A stretch of 64,000 bases of DNA from Chloroflexota bacterium (GCA_020349245.1 CP070764.1:3708202-3772201), one strand, 5' to 3'. Positions 960 through 8,433 are shown, counted from the first letter of the stretch. Numbers and translations are program-made. The notes: a model not told the origin generated them from the letters alone.

Positions 960-1293
960 GAGCGGAATATCCCGCTTACACAGTTTAAAATCACAATAAG
1001 TGAAACTGCAGGAGTAGTAAACCATCCTACAGCGAGCTGGGAGAGAATGGTGTGAGCCCAGCATGTTGCCCCTGGAGCAGCTCATCGGTTGAACTCGCCT
1101 GCTCTGCCGCTTTCAGGCAGATTCCATTGGTAAAAGTAGATCTTGATTCCTCGATCGAGGATAGCCAGTGGCGGTTATCGCCCGATATCGCGACCCGAGC
1201 GGCTTTTTCGATGATTATCTATTACATGGAAAAGGCAAGCAGGGTGGTACCACGGAGAATACCCTTCGCCCCTGATCAGCGAAGGGTTTTTTT
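960..1293 (+). promoter_or_regulatory. T-box riboswitch, leucine-specific, with terminator
   Basis: The element controls transcription of leuS1 by sensing uncharged tRNA-Leu. The T-box sequence AGGGTGGTACCACGG lies at 1241-1255. An intrinsic terminator follows: stem 1261-1269 with 1279-1287, then a T run to 1293. Stem I can be traced. Its base pairs GCAGG 1008-1012 with CCTGC 1098-1102, and an AGTA motif follows at 1013-1016. An AACC/GGTT helix sits above (1020-1023 with 1087-1090), and a distal stem pairs 1036-1041 with 1057-1062 around the conserved GGTGTGAG part. The specifier loop GAACTCG (1091-1097) places the specifier triplet CTC at 1094-1096. CTC is a leucine codon read by tRNA-Leu with anticodon GAG, which agrees with the downstream leuS. 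T-boxes are known in Chloroflexota as well as Firmicutes. Confidence 0.94.
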
Positions 1294-1362
1294 GATCATG
1301 ATGAATATGTAGGAATTACTGCGAAATTATAAATTTTTAATCTTGAAAACTGGAGGTGAAAG

Positions 1363-1446
1363 ATGGGAACGTTTCGGATCAATAAGAATTGTGAGTATAA
1401 ATCCTCCCTTCTCGCGCGCCTCCTTTGCCTCGTACTTCAAGGATAG
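1363..1446 (+). CDS. Leucine-rich leader peptide upstream of leuS1 (27 aa)
   Basis: This is a short ORF between the T-box terminator and leuS1. ATG at 1363 is preceded by the strong Shine-Dalgarno GGAGGTGA (1352-1359); the stop TAG is at 1444-1446. The peptide has six leucines in residues 16-25, arranged as Leu-Leu-Ala-Arg-Leu-Leu-Cys-Leu-Val-Leu. Their codons are CTT, CTC, CTC, CTT, CTC, CTT, all read by tRNA-Leu(GAG), the isoacceptor implied by the T-box specifier. Bases 1424-1433, inside codons 21-24, are perfectly complementary to 1486-1495, which contains the leuS1 ribosome-binding site. The most likely role is cis regulation: a ribosome stalled on leucine codons would keep 1424-1433 single-stranded and free the leuS1 start. 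That is inference. The ORF, codons and complementarity are seen directly. Confidence 0.7.
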   Translation: MGTFRINKNCEYKSSLLARLLCLVLQG

Positions 1447-1495
1447 AGCCCGATGCAAGTTAACCAATTATCCCTGCAGTTAATAACGAGGCAAA
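1424..1495 (+). promoter_or_regulatory. Hairpin that can hide the leuS1 ribosome-binding site
   Basis: TTTGCCTCGT (1424-1433) and ACGAGGCAAA (1486-1495) form a perfect 10-bp helix. The 3' strand holds GAGG at 1488-1491, the only plausible Shine-Dalgarno for the leuS1 ATG at 1500 (8-nt spacing). A smaller helix, TTAAC 1460-1464 with GTTAA 1479-1483, lies in the loop. The 5' strand lies inside the leader ORF, so translation of the leader can decide whether the helix forms. Confidence 0.7.
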
Positions 1496-1499
1496 TAAA

Positions 1500-3947
1500 A
1501 TGTCTGATTCATATGTCCCCACGAATTTCGAAGCAAACTGGCGAGAGGAATGGCAGGCCTCTGGCCTGTACCGCGCTGTTGAAAACCAAGATAATCCCAA
1601 GTTTTATTGTTTAGATTTTTTTCCCTACCCATCGGGCGAAGGACTGCATGTAGGACATTGTAGGAACTATATCCCCACTGACGTCCTCTCTCGCTACATG
1701 CGAATGCGGGGGTATAACGTATCGCACCCCATGGGTTGGGATTCATTTGGTGAACCTACGGAGCAATACGCGGAGACTCACGGTGTCCATCCAAGGGAGA
1801 TCACCAATCGGAGTACAGCAAATTTCCGTTACCAAATGGATTTAATTGGGACAAGTTACGACTGGACCCGGGAGATCGATTCGTCGCAACCCGAATTCTA
1901 TCGGTGGACCCAATGGTTTTTCCTGAGACTCTATAAAAAAGGGCTGGCGTACCGGGATACAAGCTGGCAGTGGTGGTGCCCGATCTGCCAGACCACGCTT
2001 TCAAGTCATGAGTCCGTTGGTGGGAAGTGCTGGCGGAATCACTCAGGCATTATTCGGCGAGAGATCCCCGCCTGGTATTTTCGCATTACGGATTACGCAG
2101 ATTCCCTCCTGGAGGGATTGGACGGCCTCGATTGGCCGGAGAAAGTCAAGACCTTACAGCGCAACTGGATAGGTCGTTCTGACGGCTGCGAAATCATCTT
2201 TACTACTGAGGTCGGTGAGCCAATTCCTGTCTTCACGACCCGTCCGGAGACTGTATTTGGGACGACATTTATCGTCCTGGCACCAGAACATCGCCTTGTT
2301 GAAGCCTTGGTGGGTGACGCGTCCCGAACTCAGATCAGCAACTACCGCGAGCAAGCTGTGCAGATGAGTGAAATCGATCGCTTGGCAAGGGATCGTCAAA
2401 AAACAGGCGTGTTCTCTGGCAGCTACGCGATCAATCCTTTAAATCAACAGCCTCTACCAGTCTGGATTGCAGATTATGTGCTGCCCACATACGGCACCGG
2501 TGCAGTTATGGGTGTTCCGGCTCATGATGAAAGGGATTTTGAGTTCGCCCGTAAGTATGACCTGCCGATACACGTAGTAATTTCTCCGCCGGACTTCTCT
2601 GGCGCAAATTCCCTGCAAGAAGCATATCTTGAATCTGGCAAGATGATCAATTCTGGACCTTTTGATGGTCTGCAAAGTGAGCTGGCTGCTGAGCAGATAT
2701 TAAAATTCATCGAAAATAATCACTGGGGTTATAGAGCTGTGAGCTACCATTTGCGCGATTGGTTGATCAGCCGCCAGCGTTATTGGGGTACACCTATTCC
2801 CATCATCCATTGCGAACAATGTGGAGAAGTTCCGGTTCCGGAGGGAGAGCTGCCCGTGCTGCTACCGGACCTGAGTGAATTCAAGCCAGACGGAAGTGGT
2901 CGTTCCCCGCTTGCCCGGGTCCCCGAGTTTGTCAACACCACTTGTCCCAAATGTGGAGGTCCCGCCCAACGAGAAACGGATACCATGGGTGGTTTTGCCT
3001 GTTCATCATGGTATTTTTTGCGGTTCACCAGCCCAGATTATGAATATGGACCATTTAACCCTCAATCGATGGAATATTGGATGCCAGTTGACCTGTACGT
3101 GGGAGGAATAGAGCATGCGGTCATGCATTTGATGTATGCACGCTTCTGGACCCAATTTTTGGCTGATGAAGGTTTGCTGCCCTTTAGAGAACCTTTCACC
3201 AGATTGCTGAATCAGGGTCAGATGATGGGGACGGATGGTTTCAGGATGTCAAAATCGCGGGGCAATGTGATCACCCCGAACGACGTTGTCGAACGATATG
3301 GTGCAGACACCTTGCGGGTTTATTCGCTCTTCATGGCCCCCTTTGATCAAGACGTCAACTGGAGTGATGAAGGAATAAAAGGCGCCCGCCGTTTCCTGGC
3401 CCGCATCTGGCAGCTTTACGCAGAAACGTATCAGGAAAGCGCCTCGGCTGGGGTCAAAGATGGCCAATTGGAACATGAGCTGCATAAAATCATTGAGAGA
3501 GTCAGCACTCGCATCGAACAGTTCCGTTTTAACACAATGATCTCTGCCCTGATGGAGTTTGTAAACCTGTTGTCAGATCGCTACCAAAACGGAAATTGGC
3601 AAACCTCAACTTACCACGACTCCTTGGAAACGCTGCTCGTGCTATTAGCTCCTGCAGCTCCATTTATCAGTGAAGAAATATGGTGTCGAAGTGGACATGA
3701 ATTCAGTGTTCACCACCAGAGTTGGCCTGATTGGGATTCCGAGCTGGCTCGGGAAGAGATGGTCAAGATCCCCGTGCAGGTCAACGGAAAAGTACGAGAT
3801 GTAGTTGAAGTGCCTGTGGATGCACGCCAGGAAATTATTGAGGAAGCTGTATTTGATTTGGAGAAGATCCAGCAGCACGTTGCTGGCAGCAAGGTCGAGC
3901 GGGTGATTTATCTCCCGGGTAAAATCATGAATATTGTCACCGGGTGA
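1500..3947 (+). CDS. leuS: Leucyl-tRNA synthetase, T-box-controlled paralog
   Basis: Class Ia synthetase that attaches leucine to tRNA-Leu in the cytoplasm; 815 residues, close to the usual bacterial length. The HIGH motif reads HVGH at residues 50-53 and the KMSKS motif reads RMSKS near 583. The CP1 editing domain is intact: TTRPET, then GTGAVMGVPAHDERD, which removes mischarged amino acids. Zinc-type Cys pairs occur near CPIC and CEQC/CPKC, and a C-terminal tRNA-binding end reads QVNGKVRD. An odd point is the leucine/adenylate-pocket stretch (residues 79-91), which reads GWDSFGEPTEQYA where most LeuRS, including the second copy here, have a form of GxDAFGLPAEN. The start ATG at 1500 is set by GAGG at 1488. 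The gene heads an apparent operon with the methyltransferase fusion and second leuS. Confidence 0.95.
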   Translation: MSDSYVPTNFEANWREEWQASGLYRAVENQDNPKFYCLDFFPYPSGEGLHVGHCRNYIPTDVLSRYMRMRGYNVSHPMGWDSFGEPTEQYAETHGVHPREITNRSTANFRYQMDLIGTSYDWTREIDSSQPEFYRWTQWFFLRLYKKGLAYRDTSWQWWCPICQTTLSSHESVGGKCWRNHSGIIRREIPAWYFRITDYADSLLEGLDGLDWPEKVKTLQRNWIGRSDGCEIIFTTEVGEPIPVFTTRPETVFGTTFIVLAPEHRLVEALVGDASRTQISNYREQAVQMSEIDRLARDRQKTGVFSGSYAINPLNQQPLPVWIADYVLPTYGTGAVMGVPAHDERDFEFARKYDLPIHVVISPPDFSGANSLQEAYLESGKMINSGPFDGLQSELAAEQILKFIENNHWGYRAVSYHLRDWLISRQRYWGTPIPIIHCEQCGEVPVPEGELPVLLPDLSEFKPDGSGRSPLARVPEFVNTTCPKCGGPAQRETDTMGGFACSSWYFLRFTSPDYEYGPFNPQSMEYWMPVDLYVGGIEHAVMHLMYARFWTQFLADEGLLPFREPFTRLLNQGQMMGTDGFRMSKSRGNVITPNDVVERYGADTLRVYSLFMAPFDQDVNWSDEGIKGARRFLARIWQLYAETYQESASAGVKDGQLEHELHKIIERVSTRIEQFRFNTMISALMEFVNLLSDRYQNGNWQTSTYHDSLETLLVLLAPAAPFISEEIWCRSGHEFSVHHQSWPDWDSELAREEMVKIPVQVNGKVRDVVEVPVDARQEIIEEAVFDLEKIQQHVAGSKVERVIYLPGKIMNIVTG

Positions 3948-4020
3948 TAAGTAAATTAACCTGCGAAAATACCAATGCTAAAAACTTGGGTTTGCATAAT
4001 AAATCTAGTTTGGAGAAAAG

Positions 4021-5589
4021 ATGGCAATCGTTTTAGCGTCAGCATGGCAGCCTCGCGGAGAGTTTAAACGTTTCTTTCAACACTTGCCGCTTCTCAAAAA
4101 AGCGTATCGTGGAATAGCTATCACTTTGCCGCCTGATACAGAAACCGGATTGATCGAGTCGCTGAACGTGCATCCGGAAATAAAAGCGGTGGCTACATCA
4201 GATTGGTCTCATGGGCGTGCAGATGCTCTGAGACTCGCTCTTGATTTCAGCGGGTCCCACGTCCATTATGTTGATTTCGATCGCCTGATTCGCTGGATTG
4301 AGACCAGGAGGGAGGAATGGGATAATATCCTGCTGGAGATTGTTAAACACGATTGCCTCGTAATTGGTCGTTCTGCCCACTCGTACCAGACTCATCCCCG
4401 GGCATTAATTCAAACAGAAGCGATCAGCAATCTGGTGATCTCGTATCTGGTAGGTCATTCTCTCGATGTATCTGCTGGTTCCAAAAGTTTCTCTAGAAGA
4501 GCATGTGCATATATTGTGGCAAATTGTATGCCAGGTAACGCTCTCGGTACGGATGCTGAATGGCCAGTGATCATAAAACGCGGCGGGTTTGAAATTAATT
4601 CGATCCTAGTGGATGGCCTGGACTGGGAATCTGCGGATAGATTCCAGGATACCGCTGCGGACAAGAATAGCCAGGAGCATCTAGCAGAAATTTATGATGA
4701 AGACCCGGAAAACTGGTCCAAACGCGTGGATGTTGCCCGGGAGATCGTCCAGGTTGGTTTTGAAGCGATGCATAGAGAATTGCCTTCTTTATATAGATTT
4801 GAGGAATACGATTTGCAGGAAGAGCAGATAGATAATGGGAGCCGTTTTCATTTTGAAGAAGTCTTTGATGTGCAGGACTATCTGTATTTCTACCTTGATT
4901 CCCTTACCCCAGAACGAACACAGGCAGAAGTGGCGGGTCTGGTGCGTGAACTATCCCTCGATTCACCCAGGGATATACTCGATCTGGCATGCGGGTTCGG
5001 CAGACATGCCATTGCCCTGGCTGCGCGGGGACATCGGGTAACAGGCGTGGATAAATATGAGCGATTTTTGGAAATTGCCAGGCAAGAAGCTCATGAACGC
5101 AATTTACCTGCGGAATTTATCCAGGATGATATGCGCAGCATTCAATTCGAGCAGAAGTTTGATCATGTCCTGCTACTTTTCAGTTCTTTTGGGTATTTCG
5201 TGGACGAGGAAAATCAACTGGTTCTGAAGAATATAGCCCGCGCACTGAAACCGGGTGGCTCGGTGGTGATCGAAATTCCGAACCGCGATAGTTTAATAAT
5301 TAACTTCCAACCGATTGTGATCACGGAAAAGGGCCAGGATCTGATGATCGACAGGTGCAGGTTTGATCACTTCACCAGCCGCTGGTACAACCGGCGAATC
5401 GTGATTCGCGAAGGTATTCGCAAGGATAAGCCTTTTTTTATCCGGGTTTATAATTCCGGGGAAATAAAGCAATTGATCAGTTCAGCTGGAATGCAGTTAG
5501 TGAATATCTACGCGGGATACGAGGCAGAACCGCTCTCCGAAAGTTCCACAAGAATGGTTATAATCGCCAGAAAACCAATTGATGAGTGA
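4021..5589 (+). CDS. Glycosyltransferase-like / SAM-dependent methyltransferase fusion
   Basis: 522 residues in two parts. The N-terminal part (about 1-240) resembles a nucleotide-sugar transferase (GT-A) fold: an opening beta strand IVLASA, a conserved HGRADALRLAL helix, and YVDFDR, similar to a metal-binding acidic motif. The C-terminal part (about 290-440) is a class I methyltransferase, with motif I LDLACGFGRHA near residue 320, a following GVDK acidic turn, and a late GGSVVIEIPN strand. TGGAGAAAAG directly ahead of the ATG is a good ribosome-binding site. The gene lies between two leuS genes, 73 bases after the first and 51 before the second, so it is probably co-transcribed with them. 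The substrate is unknown. A link to tRNA or to translation is suggested only by position. Confidence 0.8.
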   Translation: MAIVLASAWQPRGEFKRFFQHLPLLKKAYRGIAITLPPDTETGLIESLNVHPEIKAVATSDWSHGRADALRLALDFSGSHVHYVDFDRLIRWIETRREEWDNILLEIVKHDCLVIGRSAHSYQTHPRALIQTEAISNLVISYLVGHSLDVSAGSKSFSRRACAYIVANCMPGNALGTDAEWPVIIKRGGFEINSILVDGLDWESADRFQDTAADKNSQEHLAEIYDEDPENWSKRVDVAREIVQVGFEAMHRELPSLYRFEEYDLQEEQIDNGSRFHFEEVFDVQDYLYFYLDSLTPERTQAEVAGLVRELSLDSPRDILDLACGFGRHAIALAARGHRVTGVDKYERFLEIARQEAHERNLPAEFIQDDMRSIQFEQKFDHVLLLFSSFGYFVDEENQLVLKNIARALKPGGSVVIEIPNRDSLIINFQPIVITEKGQDLMIDRCRFDHFTSRWYNRRIVIREGIRKDKPFFIRVYNSGEIKQLISSAGMQLVNIYAGYEAEPLSESSTRMVIIARKPIDE

Positions 5590-5640
5590 TGGTCAAAAAG
5601 AATTATTAATTCAATTTAACAGATGTATGTGGAGAAAAGC

Positions 5641-8433
5641 ATGCCAGATCACATTGAATACAATCCTGGGGAAATCGAACCAAAATGGCAGGCTCGCTGG
5701 GAAGAAGATGGTCTCTATGATGCAGATATCGACCGTTCGAAACCAAAATATTATGCCCTAACCATGCTTCCCTACCCGTCTGGAGACCTGCATATCGGTC
5801 ATTGGTATGCAATGACTCCCTCCGATGCCCGGGCACGATATAAGCGGATGCAGGGGTACAATGTTGTGTTCCCGATGGGATTTGATGCCTTTGGTCTACC
5901 CGCGGAAAATGCAGCAATCAACCGGAATATCCACCCGAAAGAGTGGACGTATGCCAATATCGTGCGCATGCGTGGTCAGCTGCGTTCCATGGGAGCGATG
6001 TATGATTGGCGCCGGGAAGCTATCTCTTCCGATCCGAAATATTACCGTTGGTCACAATGGTACTTTACCCAGCTTTATAAGAATAATTTAGCGTACCGCA
6101 AGATGTCCCCGGTGGATTGGTGTCCAAACTGCAACACGACCCTGGCGCGCGAGCAGGTATGGGGAGAAGATCGTCATTGTGAGCGCTGTGGGACCCCGGT
6201 AATCAAGAAAGACCTGGAGCAGTGGTTCTTCCGCACGACAAACTACGCTGAGGAATTATTAGATTTCTCCAACATTGATTGGCCAGAGCGCGTGGTAACC
6301 CTGCAAACTAATTGGATCGGTCGCAGTGAAGGCGCGGAGGTACATTTCGCCGTGGACTCGGCGAACCTGACACAGGACGAAGCACGAATCACAGTCTTCA
6401 CCACCCGTCCCGATACGCTCTGGGGTGCGACTTTCATGGTCTTGGCACCGGAGCATCCCCTGGTGGCAAAAATCACCGCCCCAGAACAGAAAACGGATGT
6501 GGATGAATACGTCCGCCAAGCTGTACGCCAGACAGATATCCAGCGTGAATCTGCAGAGAAAGAAAAGAGTGGGGTTTTCACTGGCGGTTACGCGATCAAT
6601 CCAGTCAACGGCAAGCGGATTCCAATCTGGATAGCGGATTACGTTTTAATGACCTATGGTACTGGAGCGATCATGGCAGTTCCTGCTCATGACGAAAGAG
6701 ATTTCGAATTTGCTTTGAAGTTTGGCTTGCCGATCCTGCCGGTGATCGAACATCCAGACGGATCAGCGAAATCTTTTGCCCCCAGTGGCACCACCAAACC
6801 TGGCTTTGAGCAGGAATTGAATGAAACAGGTATACCTTTCGATAAAAATGAGACAGGTTTATACATTACCTTGACCAGGGATAAAATCAAAAGATATCTT
6901 GAGATAACTTCAAAATACCTGGAAGATAACGCCTGGAATGAAGTGGTTGGGAGCGGATGGTTTTTTGTTTTCACCGATGGTGTTGTGGCTTGGGATTCGT
7001 TGGAAAGCGAACAAATCATTCTTGAGCGCTGCAAAGGTTTAGAGCCGTCTGTGGTGAAATACCGGACGCTCATGGAAATGTTATGGGGAGTCGAATTCTA
7101 TCGTGATGTTTTGTATCATCATGAGTATGGCACCATGATCCATTCTGGTGAATTCAGCGGAGTGCCAGGTGAAGAAGCGGTGGGAAAAGTAAATGTGTGG
7201 TTGGAGGATAAGGAGTTCGGAAAAGCGGCCGTCAACTATCGATTACGAGATTGGCTGATCTCCCGCCAGCGGTATTGGGGCGCTCCCATTCCGATCATTT
7301 ACTGTCCGGAGCACGGGACAGTGCCAGTTCCGGATGACGAGTTGCCAGTTTTGCTCCCTGATGATGTAGAATGGCTGCCGACCGGGGAGAGTCCCTTGAA
7401 ATTGCATCCCACCTGGAGATATACAACCTGCCCGGTATGTGGCAACCCAGCAGAACGGGAAACGGATACCATGGATACATTCATGTGTTCTTCCTGGTAC
7501 CACCTGCGTTACTTGAGCCCGGATTATGATCAAGGGATGTTCGATCCTGAGGAATACGATTATTGGATGCCGGTGGATACATATACTGGTGGGATTGAAC
7601 ATGCAACCATGCATTTGATTTACACCCGGTTTTTCCACAAAGCTGGACGGGATATGGGGATCATGAAGGGACCCGAGCCAATGCTGAAGCTGCGCAATCA
7701 AGGGATTATCCTCGGCGAGGATTCGGAGAAGATGTCAAAAAGCCGGGGGAATGTGGTTGCTCCTGACGAATTGGTTGCCCAGTACGGCGCAGATACTGTG
7801 CGTGCCTACCTCATGTTTTTTGCCCGTTGGGATCTTGGGGGACCTTGGAACAGCAGCGGTATTGAAGGCACTGTCCGCTGGTTGAAGCGCATTTGGACAC
7901 TGGTAACAGAACCAGGAGAACCCGGGTCACCCGATCCAGAGACGAGTCGTGCTTTACGCCGAAAGGTCCATCAAACACTGCGCCAGGTTACTCATGACTT
8001 CGAGACATTTGAATTCAACACCATCGTATCCGCCTTGATGGAGCTGCTCAACGAGATGTACAAGGCTCGCGAAAAAGGTGCCTCCGGATCAGCTGCTTGG
8101 CTCGAAGCCCAGGATATCTATCTGCGTATGCTGGCTCCGGTAGCTCCCCATGCTGCGGAAGAGATGTGGGGTTATCTGGGAAAACCATACTCGGTCCACA
8201 CGCAACCTTGGCCAGAAGTGGATGAGTCTGCCGCTGCGGAAGAGCAGGTCACACTCGTAATTCAGGTGAACGGCAAGGTGCGCGATAGAATTCTCGTACC
8301 TATCGACATCGATGCAGATGAGGCAAAAAATCTGGCCCTTAGTTCGGAAGCAGTGACCAAGTATCTGGAGGGGAAAACTCCCAGGAAAGTGGTTCTGGTA
8401 CCAGGTAAATTGGTCAATATCGTCGTGGGATAA
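5641..8433 (+). CDS. leuS: Leucyl-tRNA synthetase, second paralog with a ~120-aa insertion
   Basis: A second complete class Ia leucyl-tRNA synthetase, 930 residues from the ATG at 5641, which has GGAG at 5632-5635. An upstream ATG at 5623 is in frame but has no ribosome-binding site. HIGH is at residues 51-54, the canonical pocket FDAFGLPAEN near 81-90, and KMSKS at 697-701. The editing domain (TTRPDT, GTGAIMAVPAHDERD) and the zinc Cys pairs are present, so it should be active. It carries an extra segment of about 120 residues (roughly 374-497, bases 6760-7130) between the editing domain and the return to the catalytic core; leuS1 lacks it. No T-box precedes it directly, but it may be read from the leuS1 transcript. 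Its pocket is the more ordinary one and may be the housekeeping copy; this is a guess. Confidence 0.95.
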   Translation: MPDHIEYNPGEIEPKWQARWEEDGLYDADIDRSKPKYYALTMLPYPSGDLHIGHWYAMTPSDARARYKRMQGYNVVFPMGFDAFGLPAENAAINRNIHPKEWTYANIVRMRGQLRSMGAMYDWRREAISSDPKYYRWSQWYFTQLYKNNLAYRKMSPVDWCPNCNTTLAREQVWGEDRHCERCGTPVIKKDLEQWFFRTTNYAEELLDFSNIDWPERVVTLQTNWIGRSEGAEVHFAVDSANLTQDEARITVFTTRPDTLWGATFMVLAPEHPLVAKITAPEQKTDVDEYVRQAVRQTDIQRESAEKEKSGVFTGGYAINPVNGKRIPIWIADYVLMTYGTGAIMAVPAHDERDFEFALKFGLPILPVIEHPDGSAKSFAPSGTTKPGFEQELNETGIPFDKNETGLYITLTRDKIKRYLEITSKYLEDNAWNEVVGSGWFFVFTDGVVAWDSLESEQIILERCKGLEPSVVKYRTLMEMLWGVEFYRDVLYHHEYGTMIHSGEFSGVPGEEAVGKVNVWLEDKEFGKAAVNYRLRDWLISRQRYWGAPIPIIYCPEHGTVPVPDDELPVLLPDDVEWLPTGESPLKLHPTWRYTTCPVCGNPAERETDTMDTFMCSSWYHLRYLSPDYDQGMFDPEEYDYWMPVDTYTGGIEHATMHLIYTRFFHKAGRDMGIMKGPEPMLKLRNQGIILGEDSEKMSKSRGNVVAPDELVAQYGADTVRAYLMFFARWDLGGPWNSSGIEGTVRWLKRIWTLVTEPGEPGSPDPETSRALRRKVHQTLRQVTHDFETFEFNTIVSALMELLNEMYKAREKGASGSAAWLEAQDIYLRMLAPVAPHAAEEMWGYLGKPYSVHTQPWPEVDESAAAEEQVTLVIQVNGKVRDRILVPIDIDADEAKNLALSSEAVTKYLEGKTPRKVVLVPGKLVNIVVG

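Follow-up and report, generated by a model that had tools for sequence, protein, structure and literature searches.

In translational attenuation of the erm/cat type, two stem-loops cover the ribosome-binding site (RBS) of a leader and that of the gene behind it, and a stalled ribosome frees the Shine-Dalgarno (SD) sequence of the gene. In the rtpA operon, a terminating ribosome on the leader masks the RtpA SD. This Bacillus subtilis operon has two controls, a Trp T-box and, after it, the translation of a leader peptide, RtpLP, which contains three Trp codons and whose complete translation prevents translation of RtpA (PMC2311275). The same control is attributed to Chen and Yanofsky (2003, 2004) in passages of PMC4027176 and PMC11255114. 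In actinobacteria, the LEU element upstream of leuA carries a run of Leu codons that pairs with the SD, and in Streptomyces, mutations in the Leu codons of this element were reported to be without effect on regulation (PMC1262725).

The locus described here lies upstream of the leucyl-tRNA synthetase gene leuS1 in the window, by which we mean the whole 64,000-nucleotide stretch of Chloroflexota DNA that was analyzed. As in the rtpA operon (anti-TRAP, yczA), a T-box that would act on transcription stands before a leader peptide that would act on translation and whose codons specify the same amino acid, and both gates appear to read the same tRNA, a prediction from sequence data in the case of leuS1. 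As in the LEU element, an upstream open reading frame (ORF) has a run of Leu codons that base-pairs with the regulated gene's SD; the LEU element, however, forms a pseudoknot, has no T-box, and precedes leuA, whereas the window has a T-box and the gene is leuS. By analogy, the Streptomyces result may serve as a caution for the leuS1 leader. The two stem-loops over the leader RBS and the gene RBS recall erm/cat attenuation, but the signal there is an antibiotic, and the signal proposed for the leuS1 leader is charged tRNA.

The original prediction, dual control of leuS1, is supported at the sequence level as regards the leader, the T-box, the codon bias, and the helix. Its novelty was overstated, as it held that no described system combines a T-box and a leader peptide in series on one isoacceptor, and rtpA is a precedent (PMC2311275). 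What is new is that the leuS1 tandem concerns leucine and a synthetase gene in a different lineage, compared with tryptophan and a regulator gene in Bacillus. Literature searches on leuS T-boxes in Chloroflexi and on leader peptides in Anaerolineae turned up no account of the tandem. The T-box and leader-peptide tandem recurs beyond one Bacillus subtilis Trp operon, in dozens of genomes.

The T-box and the leader ORF before leuS1

The features of the locus are as follows.

994-1276, plus strand: leucine T-box leader, from stem I to the antiterminator/terminator region (RF00230 match)
1094-1096, plus strand: T-box specifier codon CTC (in GAACTC), read directly
1242-1255, plus strand: T-box sequence GGGTGGTACCACGG, in which TGGT can pair with the ACCA end of the tRNA
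1261-1293, plus strand: intrinsic terminator of the T-box, a 9-bp stem and a T run (fold -20.7 kcal/mol, z -2.1)
1352-1358, plus strand: leader SD GGAGGTG, 5' arm of stem-loop 1, paired with 1417-1423 in the minimum free energy (MFE) fold
1363-1446, plus strand: leader peptide ORF of 27 codons with six CTY (CTC or CTT) Leu codons, read directly and kept in relatives
1408-1423, plus strand: near-invariant core CTTCTCGCGCGCCTCC (Leu Leu Ala Arg Leu), from an alignment of 26 leaders
1424-1433, plus strand: 5' arm of stem-loop 2, inside the Leu codon run of the leader, covarying with 1486-1495
1486-1495, plus strand: 3' arm of stem-loop 2, containing the leuS1 SD GAGG (1488-1491), from covariation, the MFE fold, and the swap test
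1500-3947, plus strand: leuS1, leucyl-tRNA synthetase (TIGR00396, 974.5 bits, cut-off 548)

The T-box came from a permissive Rfam search, in which it matched the full length of RF00230 (1-219/219, E 1e-7) at 41.4 bits, short of the gathering score (93); at gathering scores, Rfam gave no match in the window. The T-box is real despite a score below the curated one. RF00230 also matches at E 1e-6 to 3e-9 in the loci of six relatives, and the specifier, T-box sequence, terminator, and gene identity are those of the Leu T-box of leuS, making this an ordinary Leu T-box, though below the gathering cut-off. A Vg1 ribozyme match returned by the permissive search was dismissed as chance. The proposed specifier CTC was verified in the window, and AACTC stands at the corresponding place in 26/26 related loci; the codon (Leu) agrees with the amino acid of the regulated gene, whose product has Pfam editing, catalytic, and anticodon domains. 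The terminator stem has its arms at 1261-1269 and 1279-1287 and is similar in relatives. The tRNA-Leu set of this genome comprises GAG, CAG, TAG, and CAA, and its tRNA-Leu(GAG) has discriminator A.

Between the T-box terminator and leuS1, the predicted 27-codon ORF with a strong RBS was confirmed to the base. Its translation in the window, read directly, is MGTFRINKNCEYKSSLLARLLCLVLQG; the GGAGG of its SD occupies 1352-1356, and its stop codon (1444-1446) is followed 53 nt further downstream by the leuS1 start. Direct reading also bore out the claim of six Leu codons in ten positions (codons 16, 17, 20, 21, 23, and 25), every one of them CTC or CTT. The probability that any one set of ten consecutive codons has at least six Leu is 1.5e-4, and that of six of six being CTY is 2.5e-4 under the Leu usage of the window (25% CTY). 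The leader had no Rfam family match at the thresholds used. It has the features of an attenuator-type leader, namely, a short ORF with a start, an SD, and a run of regulatory codons.

Conservation, reading frame, and codon choice of the leader

Spacers of any kind commonly contain short ORFs, and the leader might be a chance ORF between the T-box and leuS. Conservation in five families, codon bias, and covariation all speak against this, and we give it practically no weight; the conservation across families refutes it. The comparison of leaders shows that the ORF is conserved and not a product of chance, and it is much stronger evidence than the probabilities calculated for the window.

Close LeuS1 homologs were obtained by whole-genome searches, and a scan of the genome collection with LeuS1 returned distant relatives only, at most 50% identical. 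By pattern search, the same core sequence was found in two genomes of the same genus (G001 and G003) and in one of a different family (G055), where it lies ~160 nt upstream of leuS, and a related form was found in two genomes of a third family (G251 and G289); in each of these five, the leader core lies between a T-box and leuS. The 400 genomes of the order were searched with a sequence-only model made from seven leaders (R1), which brought up further leaders, and with a second model made from 26 leaders (R2). The latter found the leader in 32/400 genomes at E 5e-5 or better, a count in which 26 of the 32 carriers are the training set, entries from related genomes lack independence, and several genomes are fragmented. 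The carriers belong to families f1, f6, f8, f9, and f12, out of 15 sampled. All of the held-out carriers (6/6; G073, G144, G156, G162, G271, and G281) keep the leader frame open and are preceded by a GAACTC-containing T-box, and 3' of the leader in these six loci is the start of LeuS or of a Lys-rich N-terminal LeuS extension. Among the closely examined loci, a T-box with specifier CTC precedes the leader in 26/26. Outside the order, no convincing leader was found among 396 class and 301 phylum genomes, where matches were partial and weak; model matches above E ~1e-3 are mostly chance and usually in coding sequence.

Loss of the leader in close relatives, which bears directly on dual control, was looked for, and the ORF and its Leu run were found to be kept. 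In the two closest congeners, the leader core is kept 100%, with the adjacent spacer down to 77%. Because many relatives have a T-box directly before leuS and no leader, the leader forms a second layer of patchy distribution. Relatives with and without it form a natural set for testing what is gained by adding a translational check on the same isoacceptor, and the leader itself represents a conserved small-ORF family that is easily missed by annotation.

The distance from the ATG to the core is 42, 45, 48, or 51 nt, in frame in 26/26 leaders, and in-frame insertions in the g50, g60, and g65 genomes split the core into CLLA...ARLL with the ORF unbroken. The loci with split-core leaders are L229, L230, L231, L232, L281, and L282.

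Theory ties the choice of regulatory codons to the isoacceptors that lose their charge first (PMC1183508). Across the leaders, 123 of 149 Leu codons are CTC or CTT. With the core set aside, the CTY codons that the small ORF was predicted to keep in relatives still show a strong bias: 51/76 (67%) are CTY versus 37/205 (18%) in the adjacent leuS genes, counted over their first 150 codons (Fisher P 2e-14), and outside the genus the count is 33/57 (P 1e-8), both P values being optimistic because of relatedness among genomes. Within the core, the wobble bases are nearly fixed, the first codon being CTT in most leaders and the second CTC in nearly all, and for this reason part of the CTY bias could be RNA-structural, not codon sensing.

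The near fixation of the core wobble positions also fits a different explanation, in which the leader functions chiefly as RNA and is recognized by a protein (possibly LeuS) or a trans RNA, its peptide and Leu codons are incidental, and its core is antisense to the region where leader translation starts and, in part of the lineages, to the SD of leuS. The leader SD region does bind the core better (mean -18.2 kcal/mol) than sequences in which the SD was kept and the rest shuffled (-15.5) or than leuS RBSs (-11.5), and a protein was favored for the actinobacterial LEU element by the authors of PMC1262725. We nevertheless consider this explanation improbable, as the ATG-to-core distance changes by multiples of three only, the ORF stays open through the core-splitting insertions, the CTY bias is strong outside the core, and a Leu T-box precedes the leader in every carrier tested.

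The same codon bias would be unexpected for a pure peptide effect, that is, for arrest by a nascent (C/S)LLARL motif that stalls the ribosome on a signal other than charged Leu-tRNA. Such arrest is quite improbable in our view: CLLARL is common to several families, and CLLA...ARLL survives insertions, but other residues (Val, Thr, Pro, His, and Leu) occur at the Ala and Arg positions, the g102 genomes have SLRALL or SVRAPL, and the context is always leucine.

Pairing over the two ribosome-binding sites

The perfect pairing of 1424-1433 with 1486-1495 over the leuS1 SD, as predicted, was confirmed base by base, TTTGCCTCGT being the exact reverse complement of ACGAGGCAAA. A perfect helix of at least 10 bp between the leader ORF and the downstream spacer arises in 0.3% of shuffles. 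The MFE fold of 1347-1512 consists of two abutting stem-loops, 1352-1358/1417-1423 and 1424-1433/1486-1495 (z -2.47, 0/200 shuffles), which in this model would sequester the SDs of both the leader and leuS1. The 3' part of the core is the 3' arm of stem-loop 1.

In an ungapped alignment of eight loci with arms placed by hand, the leuS1 SD helix has compensatory changes at 6/12 pairs, a count that shuffles reach in 1/500, so the compensatory changes anticipated among relatives are indeed present. In the same alignment, 79% of cells are paired versus 28-47% in slid controls; placing arms by eye favors structure on percent paired and less so on compensatory changes. Paired segments include, for example, GCCTCGT/ACGAGGC (window), GTCTCCTGA/TCAGGAGAC (G055), and GCCTC-T-ATCTCA/TGAGAT-T-GAGGC (G002). 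Over 25 loci and without hand placement, leaders bind the SD of their own locus better than that of another (swap test, P 0.0145), with strong binding in the genus and in G055, G015, and G199 and weak binding in many others. The helix is clear in the genus and G055 and strong in G015 and G199 (both outside the covariation count); G251 and G289 have part of it, and many of the remaining leader carriers have a weak helix or none. The regulatory Leu codons thus overlap a conserved helix with compensatory changes that is clear in part of the family only.

Stem-loop 1 is predicted in nearly all carriers, where the core is complementary to the leader SD. Covariation was looked for in this helix, and none was seen (swap P 0.76), because both of its arms are nearly fixed.

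There is no terminator-like site between the leader and leuS1, which points to a second gate of the translational type and makes a transcriptional one unlikely. Translational control might also work by occlusion as in rtpLP, with finishing ribosomes covering the leuS SD and an upstream stall relieving this, so that the SD helix would be unneeded. The leader overlaps the leuS start in G055, G199, and G251 and ends 4 nt before it in G194 and G287, as such occlusion would have it. The stop lies too far upstream of leuS for this, however, at ~50 nt in the genus that includes the window and at up to 169 nt elsewhere, and we rate occlusion as very improbable. In the window, with 53 nt from the stop to the leuS1 start, an rtpA-type leader stop close to the SD is absent, and the likely switch for leuS1 is the SD-sequestering helix with its compensatory changes, unlike the leader stop beside the SD in rtpA.

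We consider it likely that translational control by ribosome stalling is stacked on the transcriptional T-box and that both read Leu-CTY, so that two leucine sensors would act in series on leuS1. At the first gate, uncharged tRNA-Leu would pair with the specifier CTC and block termination at 1261-1293. At the second, the final Leu codons of the leader would pair with the leuS1 SD in the full-length mRNA and keep it sequestered. We infer that, when CTY-reading Leu-tRNA is scarce, a ribosome would stall in the CTT/CTC run (1408-1437) and cover the 5' arm (1424-1433), freeing the leuS1 SD. The opposite response would follow when Leu-tRNA is plentiful, as the ribosome would finish at 1444-1446 and depart, and the helix would re-form. 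The second helix (1352-1358/1417-1423) would hide the leader's own SD between rounds, and a single isoacceptor may be what both gates sense. In the genus, the modeled pairing of the leuS SD falls from 0.76 to 0.56 with a ribosome over the Leu run.

It is possible, and we offer this tentatively, that one near-invariant codon block has three roles throughout the order, serving as codons for tRNA-Leu(GAG), which the T-box before it would read as well, as antisense to the leader RBS, and, with the next codons, in sequestration of the leuS RBS. If this were true, a stalled ribosome would free both sites, reloading the leader while opening leuS, and the result would be a self-reinforcing gate stacked on the T-box.

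Gene neighborhood of the leader

A gene with a methyltransferase domain (4021-5589) sits between leuS1 and a second, different leuS in the window, leuS2 (5623-8433), which is 46-50% identical to leuS1 in matched segments. The short gaps suggest that these three genes (1500-8433) are one operon behind the T-box and leader. In G015 (L151), the order is leader, methyltransferase-domain gene, and leuS, and this gene resembles the methyltransferase-domain gene that separates the two leuS genes of the window.

The nearest T-box in G219 (L154) and G162 (L230) is >1 kb upstream, and the leader is directly before leuS; because the leader adjoins leuS while the T-box is this far off, the leader goes with leuS and not with the T-box. 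In G219, the end of an aminotransferase-like gene lies between the T-box and the leader, and likewise in L011, L012, and L015. Many relatives (L014, L013, L016, L145, and L151) have a tRNA gene pair just before the Leu T-box, unlike the window, where a tRNA is absent from this place.

In two congeners, G002 (L133) and G004 (L142/L287), the leuS1 frame has collapsed, with a jump towards the C terminus after ~45 residues; the T-box and leader of G002 and G004 are intact. G004 has masked stretches near the collapsed leuS1, and assembly effects are possible there. In several f12 genomes (L154, L157, and L229), LeuS has a long, histone H1-like N-terminal extension, rich in Lys, Ala, and Pro, before the catalytic domain.
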